Assembly (NCBI RefSeq): GCF_023824195.1
Contig: NZ_CP085444.1
Coordinates: 1 to 45,000, forward strand
Length of the DNA stretch: 45,000 bases
Direction: 5' to 3'
From: Priestia megaterium
GTDB taxonomy: Bacteria; Bacillota; Bacilli; Bacillales; Bacillaceae_H
Shown: positions 1 through 41,519 of the stretch, in pieces
How positions within the stretch are numbered: the first letter of the stretch is position 1
Layout: every line of letters starts with the position of its first letter
Program-made: the position numbers and the translations under genes
Notes under the pieces: model-generated
Told to the model about the DNA's origin: nothing
What the model saw: only the letters and a program-made list of their open reading frames with translations
Database searches by the model: none

Positions 1-1017
1 ATGAATATAAAGAGTATAGCTGGAAGTGGTGTTGAGATGAGTGAGGGTTCAAAATTGAAAACTAGTATCCATGCTTTTTTATCAAATCTAATTGATTACG
101 CTGGGTTATTTCCACCCGCTAATTTATCCCTGGAAACCTCAATAAAAAATTACAAGGAATTTCAAATTTGTAAAGATTCATGGATGCTCGGACGGTTTAT
201 CATTCCTATCTCACAACTAAACCAACTTATTCCGTATGTATCAATATTTTCAAAAGAACGTCCATTAATCATTTCAGCTTTAGGGTCTAGGAGTAATAAT
301 AAGATCGAATGCCTAAATAGCTTACATGCGGATCTTGAAATAGTTAGGTCTTTTCATAATGAATATAAGAGGAATATCAAAATTGACATATGCGAGATTC
401 CTCTCCCGCCTCATATACCTGACCGTGCTTTATTACAAACTATTACAAAAGCGACAGACAAGAGTAGGCTACAAACCTTTTGTGAAGCGACAATACCTTT
501 AGATAGGGACTGGGAATCTAAGATACTTGAAACTCTGGATATTATTGCTGCGCATAATAATGAAAGCGATTTCTTACTAGGGTTTAAATTACGGACTGGT
601 GGAGTTACAGCAGAAGCATTTCCAACTTCTCAGCAAATAGCAACCGTACTTGTCGGATGTCGTGATCGAGATATTCCCGTGAAGTTTACAGCCGGACTAC
701 ATCATCCAATTCGTATGTATCGTGAAGAAGTGAATACACGAATGCATGGTTTCCTCAATGTTTTTACAGCTGGGATGCTAGCTCATATCAAAAAACTAGA
801 TATAGTATCAACAGTAAAAATTCTTGCTGATGAGAAATCAAAGAATTTCAAGTTCACTGATAAAGGATTACAATGGCACGATTTAACCGTCCCAACTTCT
901 GAAATTATAAGATTACGAGAAAAATTACTTTGTTCATATGGAAGCTGTAGTTTCGATGAGCCCCGTGAAGACTTACGTACATTAGGAATTTATAGTATAG
1001 AAGAGGAGTGGAGATGA
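1..1017 (+). CDS. Conserved protein of unknown function in a homogentisate cluster
   Basis: 338 aa if started at the first base; the upstream region is outside the window, so the start cannot be checked. A second in-frame ATG at 37 follows a weak GGAAGTGG site and may be the true start. No signal peptide or membrane segment is visible. Conserved-looking stretches include an early DYAGLFPPA, a central FKLRTGG and a TAGLHHP segment. I do not recognise a named domain. From memory, proteins of this kind often sit beside fumarylacetoacetase in Gram-positive bacteria. The stop codon overlaps the next gene's start (ATGA), so translation is probably coupled, which points to a role in aromatic ring catabolism. 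The reaction is not known to me. Confidence 0.75.
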
Positions 1018-2300
1018 TGAAGTCATTTATAGAGGTAGATCCTAAATCTCATTTTCCCATTCAAAACCTTCCTTACGGTGTATTTCGCCCCCTTACGATG
1101 GGGGTTCCCCGTATTGGAGTTGCGATTGGTGATTATGTATTGGATCTTTCCGTGCTAGACGCTGAGGGATATTTTGATGGTACAGATGTAGGGGGAAAAG
1201 GAGTTTTTGAACAAGCTTCTCTTAATGAATTTATGGCTCTTGGAACTAAAGCATGGCGGGATGTAAGAGGACGTATCCAACAATTACTACATGAAGATGA
1301 GTCAATTTTACGGGATAACTATGCCCTTCGTAATATTGCATTAATCCCTCAAAAAAATGTCAAAATGCTTTTGCCTGCACAAATTGGGGATTATACAGAT
1401 TTTTATGCTTCAAAAGAGCATGCAACTAATGTAGGGATTATGTTTAGGGGAAAGGAAAATGCCCTAATGCCGAATTGGACTCACTTGCCAGTTGGGTATC
1501 ATGGACGAGCTAGTTCAGTAGTTCTTAGTGGGACTGATGTAAGGCGTCCACAAGGACAAATGAAACCAGCGAACTCAAATGCACCTTTATTTGGTCCGAG
1601 TTGTCAACTTGATTTGGAATTAGAGATGGGATGGTTTATTGGTCCAGGTAATGAAAGAGGGAAAAACATTGCCTTAAAAAATGCTGAGGAACAAATCTTC
1701 GGCCTTGTACTAGTCAATGACTGGAGCGCTCGAGATATCCAATCCTGGGAATATCAACCACTTGGCCCATTCTTAGCTAAGAGCTTTGCTACTTCAATTT
1801 CTCCTTGGGTGGTGCCATTTGAAGCTCTCGAGCCTTTTAGAGTAGCTGGACCAGAGCAGGAGCCAGAGCCGTTACCTTATTTACGTACAAATAAACCTGG
1901 TTCATTTGATATTCATTTAGAGGTGAATCTTAAGGGGGAAGGAATGAAAAATTCCAAAACCATCTCTACAAGTAACTTTCGTTATCTTTACTGGTCCATG
2001 GCTCAACAGATTGCTCACCATACAGTAGGGGGATGTAATTTACGTCCTGGTGATTTGCTTGCTTCAGGAACAATTAGTGGACCTGAAAAAGAGATGAGAG
2101 GAAGTTTATTGGAGCTAACATGGCGTGGAACTGAGCCGATAGAAATAGAAAATGGAGAACAAAGGGTTTGGTTAGAAGATGGAGATCAGCTAACGATTAC
2201 AGGGTGGTGTCAAGGAGAGGGATATAGGATTGGATTTGGGGAAGTGACAGGACGAGTTCTGCCAGCCCTTAAACAATCTTATACTTTATCTCACATTTAA
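1014..2300 (+). CDS. fahA: Fumarylacetoacetase
   Basis: Hydrolyses fumarylacetoacetate to fumarate and acetoacetate, the last step of the homogentisate branch of tyrosine breakdown, in the cytosol. The protein of about 428 aa has the usual length and layout of bacterial fumarylacetoacetases: a small N-terminal domain, then a FAH catalytic domain with YTDFY, the [10 protein letters not shown] stretch, LELEMG, NDWSARD and the [19 protein letters not shown] segment. ATG 1014 is preferred to GTG 1008 because GAGGAG (1003-1008) lies 5 nt upstream of it; ATG 1017 is also possible. It overlaps the stop of the upstream gene by 4 nt. No terminator is visible before the next gene, so one transcript could cover the cluster. 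Confidence 0.95.
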
Positions 2301-8955: not shown

Positions 8956-9767
8956 ATACATCTATTCTTAATCAGCAATTTTGAATAGTTCATGAATGAA
9001 CTCCACTTGATTTTGGACAGACTTGTCTTGTGAAATAAGTTGTCCTTTTTTTATCATATGGATCGCTTCTATTCCTGAAAGAATGGATGTAGCTGTGCTA
9101 AAAGATTTTAATCCTAACATAGATCGAACTCGTTTTTTAATAAATCGATGATCCTGTTCGATGATGTTATTCAGATATTTGACTTGCTTTAATTGGATGC
9201 CTACAGGCATCTTTTTTTGGTTCTTTAATTCTTCAATCGCTATAGGATAAGCTGAGTTCTTGTCTACTGTGATCACACGGGGTTTGGAAACATGAAAAGA
9301 CCGCAAAGCTTTCTTGAAAAAGCGCTTTGCAGCCTTCGTATCTCTTGTTTTACTTAAATAAAAATCAATTGTATTTCCTTTAGAATCAACCACACGGTAG
9401 AGGTACATCCATTTTCCTTTCACTTTCACATAGGTCTCATCCACTCGCCAAGAATCATTTGTTGTCTTAAGGTGACGTCGCACGCGTTCATCTAACTCTG
9501 GTCCATATTGGTGAACCCAACGCATAATCGTAGTGTGAGCTATTGATAAACCTCGTTCTTCCATCATTTCCACTAAATCACGAAAACTAAGGTTGTACCG
9601 CAGGTACCATCGGGCGGTTAGTAAAATAATGTCCGGCTGATAATGTTTCCACTTAAATAGATTCTGCTTTTCCATACTGATCACGTCCCTTTTTTAGAGT
9701 ACTAGTATCAGTATGTCCAAGGTTTAGAGATTAATTGCAAGTTAGATTGATTTTTTGCACCAAAACC
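8904..9767 (-). mobile_element. IS240-like IS6-family insertion sequence, copy 1
   Basis: 864 bp bounded by imperfect inverted ends: GGTTCTGGTGCAAA at 8904 and the complement of GGTTTTGGTGCAAA ending at 9767. It contains one transposase gene. The 8-bp flanks (GATGACAA left, CCTAATTG right) do not match, so no target duplication is left. The second copy, at 22008-22871, is in opposite orientation and the same length. Confidence 0.93.
8968..9675 (-). CDS. IS6-family (IS240-like) transposase, copy 1
   Basis: DDE transposase of 235 aa, the usual IS240 length. It has an N-terminal helix-turn-helix region (about 10-60), then the catalytic triad: Asp in WRVDETYVKVKG, Asp in VITVDKN and Glu in NNIIEQDHR. 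It catalyses replicative insertion of the element. The MEKQN start at 9675 is preferred to GTG 9684, which sits too close to AAAGGGA. It differs from copy 2 at only a handful of residues (for example FRDL/FHDL, VVDS/AVDS, KPRV/KPHV, GIEAI/GIEAM), and both look intact. Confidence 0.95.
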   Translation of the reverse strand: MEKQNLFKWKHYQPDIILLTARWYLRYNLSFRDLVEMMEERGLSIAHTTIMRWVHQYGPELDERVRRHLKTTNDSWRVDETYVKVKGKWMYLYRVVDSKGNTIDFYLSKTRDTKAAKRFFKKALRSFHVSKPRVITVDKNSAYPIAIEELKNQKKMPVGIQLKQVKYLNNIIEQDHRFIKKRVRSMLGLKSFSTATSILSGIEAIHMIKKGQLISQDKSVQNQVEFIHELFKIAD

Positions 9768-22007: not shown

Positions 22008-22871
22008 GGTTCTGGTGCAAAAAATCAATCTAACTTGCAATTAATCTCTAAACCTTGGACATACTGATACTAGTACTCTAAAAAAGGGACGTGATCAGTA
22101 TGGAAAAGCAGAATCTATTTAAGTGGAAACATTATCAGCCGGACATTATTTTACTAACCGCCCGATGGTACCTCCGGTACAACCTTAGTTTTCATGATTT
22201 AGTGGAAATGATGGAAGAACGAGGTTTATCAATAGCTCACACTACGATTATGCGTTGGGTTCACCAATATGGACCAGAGTTAGATGAACGCGTGCGACGT
22301 CACCTTAAGACAACAAATGATTCTTGGCGAGTGGATGAGACCTATGTGAAAGTGAAAGGAAAATGGATGTACCTCTACCGTGCGGTTGATTCTAAAGGAA
22401 ATACAATTGATTTTTATTTAAGTAAAACAAGAGATACGAAGGCTGCAAAGCGCTTTTTCAAGAAAGCTTTGCGGTCTTTTCATGTTTCCAAACCCCATGT
22501 GATCACAGTAGACAAGAACCCAGCTTATCCTATAACGATTGAAGAATTAAAGAACCAAAAAAAGATGCCTGTAGGCATCCAATTAAGGCAAGTCAAATAT
22601 CTGAATAACATCATCGAACAGGATCATAGATTTATTAAAAAACGAGTTCGATCTATGTTAGGATTAAAATCTTTTAGCACAGCTACATCCATTCTCTCAG
22701 GAATAGAAGCGATGCATATGATAAAAAAAGGACAACTTATCTCACAAGACAAGTCTGTCCAAAATCAAGTGGAGTTCATTCATGAACTATTCAAAATTGC
22801 TGATTAAGAATAGATGTATTTAACCATTTACATGCTTTCTTTCAGATTGACGTAATCTTTGCACCAGAACC
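22008..22871 (+). mobile_element. IS240-like IS6-family insertion sequence, copy 2
   Basis: 864 bp with ends GGTTCTGGTGCAAA and its complement at 22858-22871. It is in the opposite orientation to copy 1. The 8-bp flanks (TTACATAC and CTAGAAAG) do not match each other or those of copy 1. Confidence 0.93.
22100..22807 (+). CDS. IS6-family (IS240-like) transposase, copy 2
   Basis: 235-aa DDE transposase, intact. The catalytic residues are the Asp of WRVDETY, the Asp of VITVDKN and the Glu of NNIIEQDHR. A few substitutions separate it from copy 1 (PAYPITIEE for SAYPIAIEE, IQLRQ for IQLKQ), so the copies are not products of a very recent duplication without drift. ATG 22100 is used; GTG 22091 sits too close to AAAGGGA. 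Confidence 0.95.
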   Translation: MEKQNLFKWKHYQPDIILLTARWYLRYNLSFHDLVEMMEERGLSIAHTTIMRWVHQYGPELDERVRRHLKTTNDSWRVDETYVKVKGKWMYLYRAVDSKGNTIDFYLSKTRDTKAAKRFFKKALRSFHVSKPHVITVDKNPAYPITIEELKNQKKMPVGIQLRQVKYLNNIIEQDHRFIKKRVRSMLGLKSFSTATSILSGIEAMHMIKKGQLISQDKSVQNQVEFIHELFKIAD

Positions 22872-37974: not shown

Positions 37975-39276
37975 TTAGGAAGCTGTGTCTTCTAACTGGT
38001 TATGTTGACGCAAACATTCTTGTTCCTCTGGAGTTAAAGCTTGTCCTAGGTCTTGTTTTACCTGAGCTATCTCCAACAAGCTATACGTAGAACTGTGTTC
38101 CTGCAGCAAGTTTTCTTCCTCTGGTGTTAGCTCTTGTCCTAAATCTTGCTTCAACTCAATCATTTCAAGCTTCTGCTCCAACGTAACTTCTGTTTCTTCT
38201 GCATTGTCTTTTTGATCTTTTTCAGCTTTTAACCAACCAGGAACCAATTCCTTACGGATAATATGTTTCGGTTTAGCCAATGTTGTTGTTTCACTTTCGT
38301 TATGTATAACTTCTTGTTGGTTTGCGTATACTGATGAATAATCCTGCCCTTTAGGGTTTACCCATTCATAGAATTGATTTTTTGCAATTTGATAGATTAA
38401 TCGACACATATCCCGCAGGGATAAAGAATTGCCTTGTTGATTAGCTTCATGGACATATTTGTCTAATCCCAGGATGGATGTATACGCAATTTCATGTACT
38501 TGCTCTTTTTCAATCTCAATCTCTGTATCTCGTTTTACGGCTTTTGCAGCGTTTTGAATGCGAGCATAAAAGTCTTGTAGTTGATGTCCATACTTACCTG
38601 CATAGACTTGATTGACTTTTTTAGGCACACCTTTGATATAGGTGAAGGCCTGTGAAACAGACATTAAATGATTATTTATATGATTTACAGGTAAATCAAG
38701 GTTAATAAAGGCATCAGGTGATTTATCGGCCTCTAAGCTTGGTGTATCAACGTTTTCAGTGCTTTCTGGATGCGTCACAGGACGTGTCACAGGAGTGGTC
38801 ATTTCTTCTTGCTGAAGCGTTTGTACACCTGTTGTATCATGAGCAAAAAAGATTTCGTCGCAAATATGATGAAAGTTTTTATGGCTTTTAAGGATAAATA
38901 CATAACTATCAGGATGAGTACCTGTTGCATCCTCTTTAATGTATCGTGCCACAAGTATAAAGGGTGTCGCCTTTAACGAGCGTACAAAACGAGAAACCGT
39001 GCTTTTGGAAACATTAAATTTCTTCATAAGTGTTTCAGAACGGATCGCTTGAATGCCCGTAGCCACTAGGTTATAGATGACGTGATCGAGCATTTCCATT
39101 CTCTTTTTAGGAAATTCTTTATGTATAGCTGATTGTTGTTGTTTAAAGTGGGTACGAAGACTTTCTAAAAACTCTTCTTTCTTTTTACGAAGTGTGGACT
39201 TGTTGGTCCATAACCATTTGAACCGCCCATTGAAGGTATCTACATCTTTTAGATAACAGGTCAATATTTTTGTCAT
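37975..39276 (-). CDS. Putative plasmid replication initiator (RepM-like)
   Basis: 433 aa. An N-terminal helical region (1-70) is followed by a winged helix at about 75-125 (SETLMKKFNVSKSTVSRFVR). A Thr/Pro-rich linker leads to a helical domain (about 215-330) and a C-terminal tail with two copies of a repeat built on KQDLGQ(E/A)LTPEE. ATG 39276 is chosen, with AAGGAGA upstream. I cannot prove it is the initiator; the case rests on the wHTH, its attenuator-controlled leader and neighbours for partition. It may be related to RepM of B. megaterium plasmids. If so, the origin could lie inside or beside the gene. Confidence 0.65.
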   Translation of the reverse strand: MTKILTCYLKDVDTFNGRFKWLWTNKSTLRKKKEEFLESLRTHFKQQQSAIHKEFPKKRMEMLDHVIYNLVATGIQAIRSETLMKKFNVSKSTVSRFVRSLKATPFILVARYIKEDATGTHPDSYVFILKSHKNFHHICDEIFFAHDTTGVQTLQQEEMTTPVTRPVTHPESTENVDTPSLEADKSPDAFINLDLPVNHINNHLMSVSQAFTYIKGVPKKVNQVYAGKYGHQLQDFYARIQNAAKAVKRDTEIEIEKEQVHEIAYTSILGLDKYVHEANQQGNSLSLRDMCRLIYQIAKNQFYEWVNPKGQDYSSVYANQQEVIHNESETTTLAKPKHIIRKELVPGWLKAEKDQKDNAEETEVTLEQKLEMIELKQDLGQELTPEEENLLQEHSSTYSLLEIAQVKQDLGQALTPEEQECLRQHNQLEDTAS

Positions 39277-39303
39277 TTGTTCATCGTCTCCTTTAAGGAA
39301 CAC

Positions 39304-39343
39304 AAAAAAGACACTGTTTCCCTGGAAAAAGGAAAACAATGCC
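39304..39343 (-). terminator. Attenuator directly before the rep start
   Basis: On the minus strand a 13-bp stem (39331-39343 with 39310-39322, including G-T pairs) is followed by six T (39309-39304). It ends about 28 nt before the rep ATG, ahead of its ribosome binding site. It would stop rep transcription unless an alternative fold forms. Confidence 0.8.
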
Positions 39344-39365
39344 TTGATTTTGATGAACTAAGCCC

Positions 39366-39530
39366 TTGAAATAGATGTCAATTTCATATAAAATAAAAAC
39401 ATAAGTTTTATCTTATAGAAAAACTAACTCTATTAACAAGAGACTTCGACAAGTGTTTTCCCTACCGTGATTAGGGTGAACGGTTTAAGAGTGTTGACAG
39501 CACTTCTTAAACAGTTGAAGTCTTTTTTCT
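39366..39530 (+). ncRNA. Candidate antisense RNA over the rep leader
   Basis: Promoter TTGAAA (39366-39371), 17-nt spacer, TAAAAT (39389-39394). The transcript would start at about 39401. It ends in a branched fold: outer stem AGACTTCGAC / GTTGAAGTCT (39441-39450 with 39514-39523), inner hairpins at 39460-39476 (CCCTA / TAGGG) and 39483-39512 (GTTTAAGA / TCTTAAAC), then a T-run. It is fully complementary to the rep mRNA leader. Confidence 0.65.
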
Positions 39531-39554
39531 ATTCCGATCCTTTTTGTTAGTTTT

Positions 39555-39584
39555 ATTATAGCGTTAACTAGTCTCATAATTCAA
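39555..39584 (-). promoter_or_regulatory. Promoter of the rep gene
   Basis: On the minus strand TTGAAT, an 18-nt spacer, then TATAAT. The start would be at about 39548, giving a leader of about 270 nt before the rep ATG. Confidence 0.75.
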
Positions 39585-39762: not shown

Positions 39763-39818
39763 AAAGAGGCATTGCCCTTAGTTAAGCTGACTTAACTAAG
39801 GGCAATGCCTCTTTCATT
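39763..39818 (-). terminator. Very strong terminator after the MerR-type gene
   Basis: A perfect 24-bp stem (39763-39786 with 39791-39814) with a CTGA loop. T-rich on the plus side and A/T-rich on the minus side. It separates the MerR-type gene from the rep promoter. Confidence 0.85.
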
Positions 39819-39845: not shown

Positions 39846-40547
39846 TCATTGATTTTGTTTCATATCATACTCTCTTTCAAGTCGATCTACTAAATGTTCA
39901 CTTATATAATCTTCGATGAAAGCACGTTTTTTATTATAATTTTCTTCCCTTTTAAAACTAAACAGACCAGTTTTCACAGTTGTAGTCTGTTCCTCTTCGG
40001 GTAACATACCCCATTTTTCAATTGCTTCTTTTTTTAATTTGTTTCTAATTTTTAATTCGTTTAGACGTTGCTCTTTTTCCAAGATTCTTTGGTTGTTTGT
40101 AGTTGTAGGTGTTTCAGGGAGTGCCTTTAGTACATCTTGAAATTGAGATAAAATATTTTGATTTGTTTGTCCACTTTGTTTCATAAATGTTGTTAAAACC
40201 TGAACCATAGAATCAATTTTTTCAGTTGCCTCTGCTAATTGTTCTTCTAAATTCAATATTTTCTTCTCAAAAACTGTTTTCATAGGTTCATTCTTTTCTA
40301 ACATCTCCGATGTTGTTTCTCCATTAAAATGTGAACGGATTTGCTTAATAGAGTAACCATGTTCTTCTTTCAATCTCTTAGCCTCAAGTAACATATCAAT
40401 TTCTTCTCTTTTGAAACGACGATGACCACCTTGAGTACGAATCCCTTGAATATTAAAGTCCTCTTGATATCTTCGAATTGTTTGATCAGAAAGCCCAGTA
40501 AGTTTTATTACTTCACTTAATTTGAATTCTTCCTCAGTTTGTTTCAA
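39846..40547 (-). CDS. MerR-type DNA-binding protein with coiled coil (RacA-like)
   Basis: 233 aa. Residues about 8-78 form a MerR helix-turn-helix with wing: LSEVIKLTGLSDQTIRRYQE, then GIRTQGGHRRFKREEIDML. Residues about 95-130 are a coiled coil (KKILNLEEQLAEATEKIDSM), followed by a Gln/Asn linker and a basic C-terminal helix region. There is no ligand-binding cysteine set as in metal regulators. The layout recalls RacA, which anchors DNA. It is transcribed away from the 64-bp repeat array that starts about 180 bp upstream, so it may be the centromere-binding protein. GAGGAGG precedes the start. Confidence 0.8.
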   Translation of the reverse strand: MKQTEEEFKLSEVIKLTGLSDQTIRRYQEDFNIQGIRTQGGHRRFKREEIDMLLEAKRLKEEHGYSIKQIRSHFNGETTSEMLEKNEPMKTVFEKKILNLEEQLAEATEKIDSMVQVLTTFMKQSGQTNQNILSQFQDVLKALPETPTTTNNQRILEKEQRLNELKIRNKLKKEAIEKWGMLPEEEQTTTVKTGLFSFKREENYNKKRAFIEDYISEHLVDRLEREYDMKQNQ

Positions 40548-40728
40548 ATTAACCCCCTCCTCTTCTCAATTATAATAATAATAAATTTGTTGTTATTATA
40601 ACAGAACTGACATTAAATTTTGAGAGATTTAATGATGGATTTTGTGTTAGATTTACAGGTTCTTTTGCTATTTTTGAGAGAATAGGCAATTCAAAGTCAT
40701 AGTTTATTATAACAAAGTTCTTAAGAAG

Positions 40729-41291
40729 ACTAAAGAGATGGAATCTAACTATAAATCTGTAGTGAGTAACTGTTAAGTTTGGAATGGGATAGACTAAAGA
40801 GATGGAATCTAACTATAAATCTGTAGTGAGTAACTGTTAAGTTTGGAATGGGATAGACTAAAGAGATGGAATCTAACTATAAATCTGTAGTGAGTAACTG
40901 TTAAGTTTGGAATGGGATAGACTAAAGAGATGGAATCTAACTATAAATCTGTAGTGAGTAACTGTTAAGTTTGGAATGGGATAGACTAAAGAGATGGAAT
41001 CTAACTATAAATCTGTAGTAAGTAACTGTTAAGTTTGGAATGGGATAGACTAAAGAGATGGAATCTAACTATAAATCTGTAGTAAGTAACTGTTAAGTTT
41101 GGAATGGGATAGACTAAAGAGATGGAATCTAACTATAAATCTGTAGTAAGTAACTGTTAAGTTTGGAATGGGATAGACTAAAGAGATGGAATCTAACTAT
41201 AAATCTGTAGTAAGTAACTGTTAAGTTTGGAATGGGATAGACTAAAGAAATGGAATCTAACTATAAATCTGTAGTAAGTAACTGTTAAGTT
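40729..41291 (+). repeat. Tandem array of 64-bp repeats
   Basis: Eight full units beginning ACTAAAGAGATGGAATCTAA at 40729, 40793, 40857, 40921, 40985, 41049, 41113 and 41177, and a ninth partial one at 41241. Units 1-4 carry GTAGTGAG and units 5-9 GTAGTAAG; unit 9 has GAAATGG. Otherwise they appear identical, so the array has been homogenised. There are no unique spacers. Likely a plasmid centromere or iteron set. Confidence 0.95.
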
Positions 41292-41519
41292 TAACTTGAG
41301 TTTGACTAAAGCTGAAAACCTGACTGTGATTCTGTATTTAATTGCTGTTAGGTTTGATTTAGGTTGAACTAAAAGGAATGTGTGATTAAAAAACTATATT
41401 TAGTAGATATTATATTCAACTTAAGTTTAACTAAAGTCGAAGAAACTAACTATAAATCTATAGTAGGTGATTTTTGGATGTAAGGTTAATTGGGATTTTA
41501 ATATTTCTTTAACTCTTAG
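41292..41519 (+). repeat. Decayed repeats after the array
   Basis: Pieces of the unit recur (TTTGACTAAAG, TTGAACTAAAAGG, TTTAACTAAAG, then AACTATAAATCTATAGTAGG at about 41446) at irregular spacing, the remains of older units. No gene is present. Confidence 0.65.

Follow-up and report, generated by a model that had tools for sequence, protein, structure and literature searches.

Among the described systems closest to the one analysed here, pT181 is a rolling-circle plasmid. In its leader, a terminator-like stem-loop is located just before the start codon, its 5′ arm is the pairing partner of an upstream segment known as the pre-emptor, and binding of the antisense RNA leads to termination, as described in PMC5703833. 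The same source places the antisense RNA of plasmid pSK41 approximately 100 nt upstream of the rep start (PMC5703833). On the other side of this comparison are the strains of Priestia megaterium, for which up to ten plasmids each are described (PMC8390425). The window analysed here, i.e., the complete stretch of 45,000 nucleotides from P. megaterium (positions 1 to 45,000 of contig NZ_CP085444.1), includes on its minus strand a gene (37975–39276) for a protein of 433 residues, which tblastn relates to the RepM-type replication proteins of Priestia plasmids. We consider it very probable that the region in front of this gene controls the copy number and the compatibility of a Priestia plasmid of the RepM type by antisense-driven attenuation.

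A tblastn search with the window rep detected RepM homologues in 177 plasmid records, 174 of which belong to Priestia, and most of the 60 matches listed are annotated as “replication protein”. By similarity, the window would be a Priestia plasmid of the megaterium type with a RepM-type rep gene, and its replicon probably corresponds to the published repM100 replicon. The nearest stretch is that of p-LAD4 from P. aryabhattai LAD, with 99.9% identity in 861 bases that include the leader and the start of the gene. Several copies of this replicon can occur together; the assembly to which the window belongs (G000) has seven rep copies on seven contigs and, distributed over eight contigs, eight strong matches to the RNA element described below (E of at most 7.5e-18), and strain H2 has RepM on ten plasmids. 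The best element matches in the 5.2-Mb contig of G000 are weak (E 0.09 and 0.23), and three further rows (E 0.5–0.7) correspond to true copies read on the wrong strand. The AlphaFold model of RepM has a low mean pLDDT of 59, and a PDB search with this model gave no match at E 0.001, the top rows being winged-helix and MarR-like proteins. The RepA_N domain (PF06970) was absent from the Pfam matches of RepM and from those of 14 other products of genes that follow the element.

Other features were observed in the window. A MerR-like protein, with a tail that by eye looks like a coiled coil, is encoded upstream of rep (39846–40547, minus strand); we assume that this gene resembles Par of pSK1, a single-protein partition factor, and similar-looking genes were recognized by eye upstream of the element in loci L103, L106 and L107. 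Beside the replication region (40727–41292), a 64-bp unit is present in 8.8 copies with 99% identity, possibly forming a partition site or another binding array. Elsewhere, two reading frames of 238 residues (8968–9684, minus strand, and 22091–22807, plus strand) are nearly identical by eye, lie approx. 12 kb apart in opposite orientation, and are presumably transposase-like.

The region in front of rep shows a compact organization. A promoter with the sequence TTGAAT-N18-TATAAT (39555–39584, minus strand) precedes an untranslated leader of approximately 272 nt (39277–39548), for which the predicted start lies near 39548. At its distal end the leader carries an attenuator, formed by a terminator hairpin and its T-run (39303–39345), that is followed by the ribosome-binding site AAAGGAG (39288–39294). 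The other end is occupied by a two-armed core (39434–39534), the putative target of the antisense RNA, which was delimited with two covariance models, R1 and R2, and by covariation. In this core, a closing stem (39523–39514 with 39450–39441) holds arm 2 (39483–39512), with a hypervariable loop at 39494–39500, and arm 1 (39455–39481), with a variable loop at 39465–39471. On the opposite strand, a second promoter, TTGAAA-N17-TAAAAT (39366–39394), would direct the synthesis of an antisense RNA of approximately 130 nt (39401–39530 as predicted from the fold), provided with its own terminator by the closing stem and a T-run. Both promoters were recognized by a consensus scan and by the conservation of their hexamers. 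All these elements, i.e., the two promoters, a leader of about 270 nt, the terminator just before the ribosome-binding site, and the branched plus-strand stem-loop with its T-run, had been claimed in the preliminary description, and each of them was found at its place. It was also claimed there that the segment GGAAAACA (the complement of 39461–39454) can pair with TGTTTTCC (the complement of 39338–39331) in one arm of the attenuator; this complementarity was verified. The first segment, located at the 3′ side of arm 1, is the candidate antiterminator, and the second belongs to the 5′ arm of the attenuator.

The scan for promoter-like sites gave four, at the level expected by chance (3.6 in shuffled sequences); six terminator-like rows were obtained versus 0.3 expected, one of them corresponding to the attenuator (39345–39308, with its T-run) and the other five to a hairpin at 39765–39812. 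The latter belongs to an inverted repeat (39763–39814) whose 24-bp arms match perfectly and are separated by 4 nt, which is terminator-like on both strands and perhaps acts as a two-way terminator that isolates the control region. The leader folds with −76.8 kcal/mol (z −5.4), and the plus strand from 39401 to 39534 adopts a branched fold with −39.5 kcal/mol (z −4.4); in both cases none of 200 shuffled sequences folded as well. The 12 hexamer bases of the rep promoter and the 12 of the antisense promoter are all 100% conserved in 39 of 39 RepM leaders, versus a mean of 92% and 95% in the respective spacers (weakest columns, 38% and 69%); this contrast is modest because the whole RepM leader is conserved. 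Mean conservation falls to 55% in the arm-2 loop and is 69% in arm 1. Behind the core, an antisense promoter that agrees with the consensus in 9 or more of 12 positions is present in 75 of the 81 leaders of all kinds, where 17.6 would be expected from mononucleotide shuffling, and in 36 of the 42 non-RepM leaders (6.9 expected), with the reservation that these counts are not independent tests because the leaders are related. It is the comparison, with the conservation of the hexamers and the covariation of the helices and of the antiterminator with the attenuator arm, that places the described features above chance.

The conservation of the Y-shaped RNA was evaluated with model R1, which was built from 22 aligned cores. 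In 81 loci (77 distinct sequences), 94.6% of the paired cells are standard pairs versus 79.4% after shuffling, 23 of the 27 pairs show changes on both sides among the distinct sequences, and the covariation score is 0.396 versus 0.122; none of 500 shuffles reached any of the five measures, in an alignment that was fitted to the model and is biased towards the structure. When the structure was slid by one to three columns, pairing reached 46.0% at most. RNAalifold, applied to the unfitted alignment of 22 sequences, detected two-sided changes in 9 of the 27 pairs. The helices of the branched fold thus covary, and the stems are kept while both loops vary.

The attenuator was analysed likewise. 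A script called a hairpin with a T-run in 79 of the 81 leaders, with one wrong call (L045); the comparisons that follow include 78 leaders, i.e., all but L045 and the two in which no attenuator was found (L052 and L054). Among these, the candidate antiterminator of arm 1 appears in 15 types and the 5′ arm of the attenuator changes alongside, as in CGGTAAAC with GTTTACCG, or GGGAAAAC with GTTTTCC. The antiterminator pairs with its own attenuator with −12.5 kcal/mol, versus −7.5 when the partners are swapped among the 15 types, and none of 20,000 permutations was as good. Six of the 15 types find no better partner than their own attenuator, and for the other nine, one to five other attenuators pair better. 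The covariation of the two complementary segments, which the preliminary description had suggested looking for in related plasmids, is therefore present across the 15 types and speaks directly for the proposed pairing.

The same description had also suggested folding the leader with and without the antisense RNA; equilibrium folds show no switch. With the window leader started at 39548 and the antisense region either blocked or free, the probability of the terminator at the first point at which its 3′ arm has been made is 0.72 without and 0.94 with the antisense RNA, and later it is 0.99 in both cases. The exact 8-bp antiterminator has a probability of up to 0.59 in shorter intermediates. For the 78 leaders, intermediates were folded from 8 nt before the core. 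Before the 3′ arm of the terminator exists, 65 leaders form at least four of the expected antiterminator pairs, and afterwards one does; when the leader is complete, the terminator forms in all 78. The antiterminator is weak in the tested intermediate of 13 leaders, including L007, from the genome of the window, and that of H2 plasmid 1 (L078); it is also weak in three of the four leaders of the L020 type. Given that equilibrium favours the terminator with or without the antisense RNA, the switch would have to be kinetic, and the folding results would agree with a race during transcription, short of proof.

Another aspect of the leader is a 5′ box (39520–39535), formed by the first bases of the mRNA, which is complementary to the tail of the attenuator, i.e., the T-run and the next bases (39297–39312). 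This pairing is also better with the own partner (−13.9 versus −10.6 when swapped), and none of 20,000 permutations was as good in the 37 representatives of 77 leaders that were compared (a set without L045, L049, L052 and L054). This complementarity is equally describable as a likeness of two terminator tails.

From this organization, and from the conservation, the covariation and the distribution of loops reported here, we infer the existence of two RNAs with the ends given above, their kinetics, and their effects on the copy number and the compatibility of the plasmid, as follows. The rep mRNA would start near 39548, and GGAAAACA (39461–39454) would pair with TGTTTTCC (39338–39331) at a stage when the remainder of the terminator has yet to be transcribed, which would let the polymerase continue into rep. 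The RNA of approximately 130 nt from the opposite strand (39401–39530) would be made from every copy of the plasmid, and it would pair with the leader, probably through the loops in the first place. This pairing would occupy GGAAAACA, the attenuator would then form, and transcription of rep would stop. In such a scheme, the arm-2 loop of 6–7 nt would decide if two plasmids recognize each other. Antisense attenuation, as put forward in the preliminary description, accounts best for the conserved parts, and it is supported by the covariation of the segments in the relatives.

The Y element is widely distributed. At E 0.01, model R1 matched 36 of 397 genomes of Bacillales. Five of these have only matches of approx. 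40 nt, and without them 31 genomes remain, which represent 19 of the 135 genera sampled; six R1 matches of about this length (E 0.003–0.01) were set aside as likely due to chance. Loci L052 and L054 are R1 matches without an attenuator and without a gene found by the script. Model R2 at E 0.001 matched 8 of 398 class-sampled genomes, of which five belong to other orders; in the phylum-wide sample, also of 398 genomes, it matched 2, both within the order. These numbers count the own genome, and stricter filters apply at this search size. Five elements (L036, L041, L053, L054 and L072) were observed on contigs larger than 4 Mb; the downstream gene seems short in L053 and L072, and in L054 none was detected. 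These elements are perhaps integrated or decaying plasmids. Two Priestia-type replicons (L009 and L010) were observed in a draft named Sphingomonas sp. PsM26, probably as a result of assembly contamination.

Rfam has families for the RNAs of pT181 and Inc18 plasmids. When the whole window was compared with Rfam 15 at the gathering score, the sole match was a group II intron elsewhere (RF00029, 24341–24418, plus strand, 41.9 bits). In the region of the element, a search up to E 10 gave 11 sub-threshold matches of unrelated kinds, with no plasmid antisense family among them; the best was the U11 snRNA (E 0.088, 21.3 of the 39 bits required). For 20 diverse loci, the search up to E 0.5 returned one sub-threshold match to a microRNA, approximately 650 bases away from the element. 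The Bacillus-plasmid RNA (RF01691), presumed to be included in release 15, was absent from the matches of the window and of the 20 loci. Among the open-licence papers listed by our searches, no report of the element was found; older papers on Priestia replicons or on pLS32, which are outside that scope, may describe it.

Another question is the identity of the genes located behind the element, which we infer to be replication initiators. The downstream reading frame begins 138–167 nt past the core in 43 of 60 loci and 83–90 nt past it in five loci with shorter leaders; none was found in four, in one of these cases (L024) because the record ends. By blastp, 51 of the 56 products chain into one cluster, or 45 when 65% coverage is required. 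The possibility that the proteins of L020, L022 and L023 are unrelated to RepM, suggested by the absence of a significant link in BLAST, was ruled out by profile comparison (probability 99.9, E 1.7e-31), and phrog_1835 is matched by both RepM and L020. This comparison also covered L021, L033 and L047, for which no link to RepM or to the L020 group was detected (probability about 2%). L050 shows similarity to replication proteins of the DnaD-like and O-like kinds, and blastp connects L051 with it. Considering these links and non-links, the putative initiators behind the cassette fall into at least three groups, which may have a very distant kinship through the winged helix. It was also considered that L021 could correspond to RepN of pLS32. 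Proteins of the pLS32 type have been linked to RepA_N (PMC4490491), whereas L021 gave no Pfam match at E 0.1, and this identity was rejected. Plasmid pNCT2_3 (L020) carries a divergent gene for a Rep_3 initiator upstream of the element (439–1821, minus strand; PF01051, E 1.7e-37), and it may have two initiators.

The loops were read in 40 copies from seven Priestia strains (assemblies G000, G003, G006 and G009, and strains H2, NCT-2 and LAD), G006 contributing four copies, two of them on one contig. The arm-2 loop appears in 21 types, and it is shared in none of the 117 pairs within a strain (permutation mean 6.0, P = 0.0004) versus 40 of the 663 pairs between strains. The arm-1 loop, with 22 types, is shared in 4 of 117 pairs within and 33 of 663 between strains (mean 5.6, P = 0.33), and both loops together are shared in none of the 117 within-strain pairs (mean 1.8, P = 0.12). 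When 36 RepM copies were shuffled within their Rep clade, the arm-2 loop was shared in 0 pairs versus 4.3 expected (P = 0.003) and the arm-1 loop in 4 versus 6.3 (P = 0.21). Co-resident Reps can be up to 96.5% identical, as in H2 plasmids 10 and 11, which have equal arm-1 and different arm-2 loops; hence, Rep divergence alone does not explain the arm-2 pattern. Among pairs with at least 80% Rep identity, the arm-2 loop is shared in 0 of 46 within strains versus 28 of 238 between strains, and the arm-1 loop in 4 of 46 versus 24 of 238, in a comparison that lacks L096, one of the 36 Reps, whose record is cut there. With six genomes of other genera added (13 in total), the arm-2 loop is shared in 1 of 128 pairs (P 0.012), the arm-1 loop in 5 (P 0.85) and both loops in none (P = 0.29); the single case is G168, outside Priestia, where two copies have the same arm-2 loop and different arm-1 loops. 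Some of the added pairs are weaker as co-residents because they lie on a common contig (G340 and one pair of G342) or on one of chromosomal size (G340 and G365). A 301-kb contig of G006 (C7) carries two rep copies (L013 and L015) with different arm-2 loops, and looks as if two compatible plasmids had fused.

Exact queries with four common arm-2 loops retrieved 55 public plasmid records (15, 10, 24 and 6), including plasmids of LAD, NCT-2 and H2. A repeated arm-2 type was evident in a single strain, YC4-R4, with three records; the two that were compared are linear and have 17.7 kb in common at 99.9%, for which reason they were treated as redundant contigs. F16 and F20 are different strains, and the strain identity of the remaining records was judged from accession series and source. 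The motif YUNR forms a U-turn, which allows the loops of other plasmid antisense RNAs to pair fast. On either strand, it is present in 25 of the 37 distinct arm-2 loops versus 12.7 in shuffled loops (0 of 2,000 shuffles as high), and in arm-1 loops it is rarer than chance (12 of 57 versus 21.6); from this excess and this deficit, the two arms seem to differ in role. Judging from its distribution, the arm-2 loop behaves like a plasmid-identity tag, or a compatibility determinant.

Other explanations have to be weighed against antisense attenuation, and the least improbable of them, though still unlikely, is that compatibility is set by the specificity of Rep and the origin or by partition, the diversity of the loops merely following the plasmid lineage. 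Loop types do partly track lineages, the MerR-like gene at 39846–40547 may be a partition gene, and in most of the fetched relatives a gene for a “plasmid stabilization protein” follows rep; however, lineage would not account for plasmids with at least 80% Rep identity sharing the arm-2 loop between strains (28 of 238) and never within one (0 of 46), nor for a deficit that persists when copies are shuffled within the Rep clade (P = 0.003). The variation of both loops over stems that are kept, and the difference of the arm-2 loop among co-resident plasmids, also speak against the idea that the Y element is a leader that binds a protein, such as Rep, or senses a ligand in the manner of a riboswitch, the opposing promoter being incidental. 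It is general knowledge that a structured, conserved leader with an attenuator is the anatomy of a riboswitch too, but RepM leaders show no variation in the hexamers of this opposing promoter and no Rfam family is above threshold in the region, and we regard this explanation as highly improbable.

It could also be thought that the antisense RNA acts mainly on translation, by blocking the ribosome-binding site of rep, with termination as a secondary effect. The attenuator immediately precedes this site, and there is a precedent in pSK41, where the antisense RNA is described as inducing a stem-loop that sequesters the ribosome-binding site (PMC5703833). Nevertheless, a T-run follows the hairpin in the 78 leaders used, the 5′ arm of the hairpin covaries with the upstream antiterminator, and the hairpin of the window does not include the ribosome-binding site; we therefore give little credit to translation as the main target, and prefer transcription attenuation by the antisense RNA.

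On antisense attenuation, a broader proposal can be built, and the chances of this proposal we judge to be evenly balanced: that one cassette has spread over plasmids of Bacillales with several unrelated initiators, that the arm-2 loop is an identity code of 6–7 nt, whose diversification lets ten plasmids coexist in one cell without cross-inhibition although their Reps are closely related, and that the pairing of the 5′ box with the attenuator tail adds a step. To our knowledge, no step based on a complementarity between the start of the mRNA and the tail of the terminator has been known from pT181 or pIP501. The presence of the same putative switch with different loops before the rep gene of many plasmids may explain how ten plasmids with related rep genes are maintained per cell, and the exchange of a single loop of 6–7 nt could now test why Priestia plasmids do not exclude one another. 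If true, compatibility could be typed from sequence in this genus, which is of use in biotechnology; the element would also provide a natural set of RNA attenuators, possibly orthogonal to one another, and would represent an RNA family without a match in Rfam 15.

The comparison with the described systems reveals likeness and difference in each case. The Bacillus-plasmid RNA motif (RF01691) is also a structured RNA predicted on Bacillus plasmids in the survey by Weinberg in 2010 (PMC2864571), and differs in that it matches neither the window nor the 20 diverse loci. Plasmids pSK41 and pSK1 are theta plasmids of Gram-positives with an antisense RNA (RNAI) against the rep leader, as predicted for the present one; in the account given in PMC5703833, the induced stem-loop blocks translation and transcription attenuation is not involved. 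They are RepA_N replicons, whereas RepM has no RepA_N match. The attenuation of pT181 repC shares with the system predicted here an RNA counter-transcribed to the rep leader and the logic of pre-emptor and terminator, and differs in that pT181 is listed as a Rep_trans plasmid with an RNAI of 87 nt (PMC5703833). In pIP501 and pAMbeta1 (Inc18), which are theta plasmids, repR is controlled by an antisense RNA of similar length (RNAIII, 136 nt) and an attenuator in the leader (PMC4981023); this system adds the repressor CopR, and its initiator is the PriCT_1-type RepR instead of a RepM-type protein, as presented in PMC4981023 and PMC5703833. No Rfam match links the Inc18 and pT181 RNAs with that of the window. 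In the Inc18 system two loop pairs reportedly must interact simultaneously, as the title of a 2007 work by Heidrich and Brantl has it. The resemblance to the copy control of pT181 and pIP501 that had been proposed for this locus is therefore upheld in its logic, although the initiator is not the same and the RNA belongs to none of the listed families; the preliminary description had placed the novelty in the use with this Rep type, and the wide spread of the element, its lack of a match in Rfam 15 and its compatibility-like loops are more striking.
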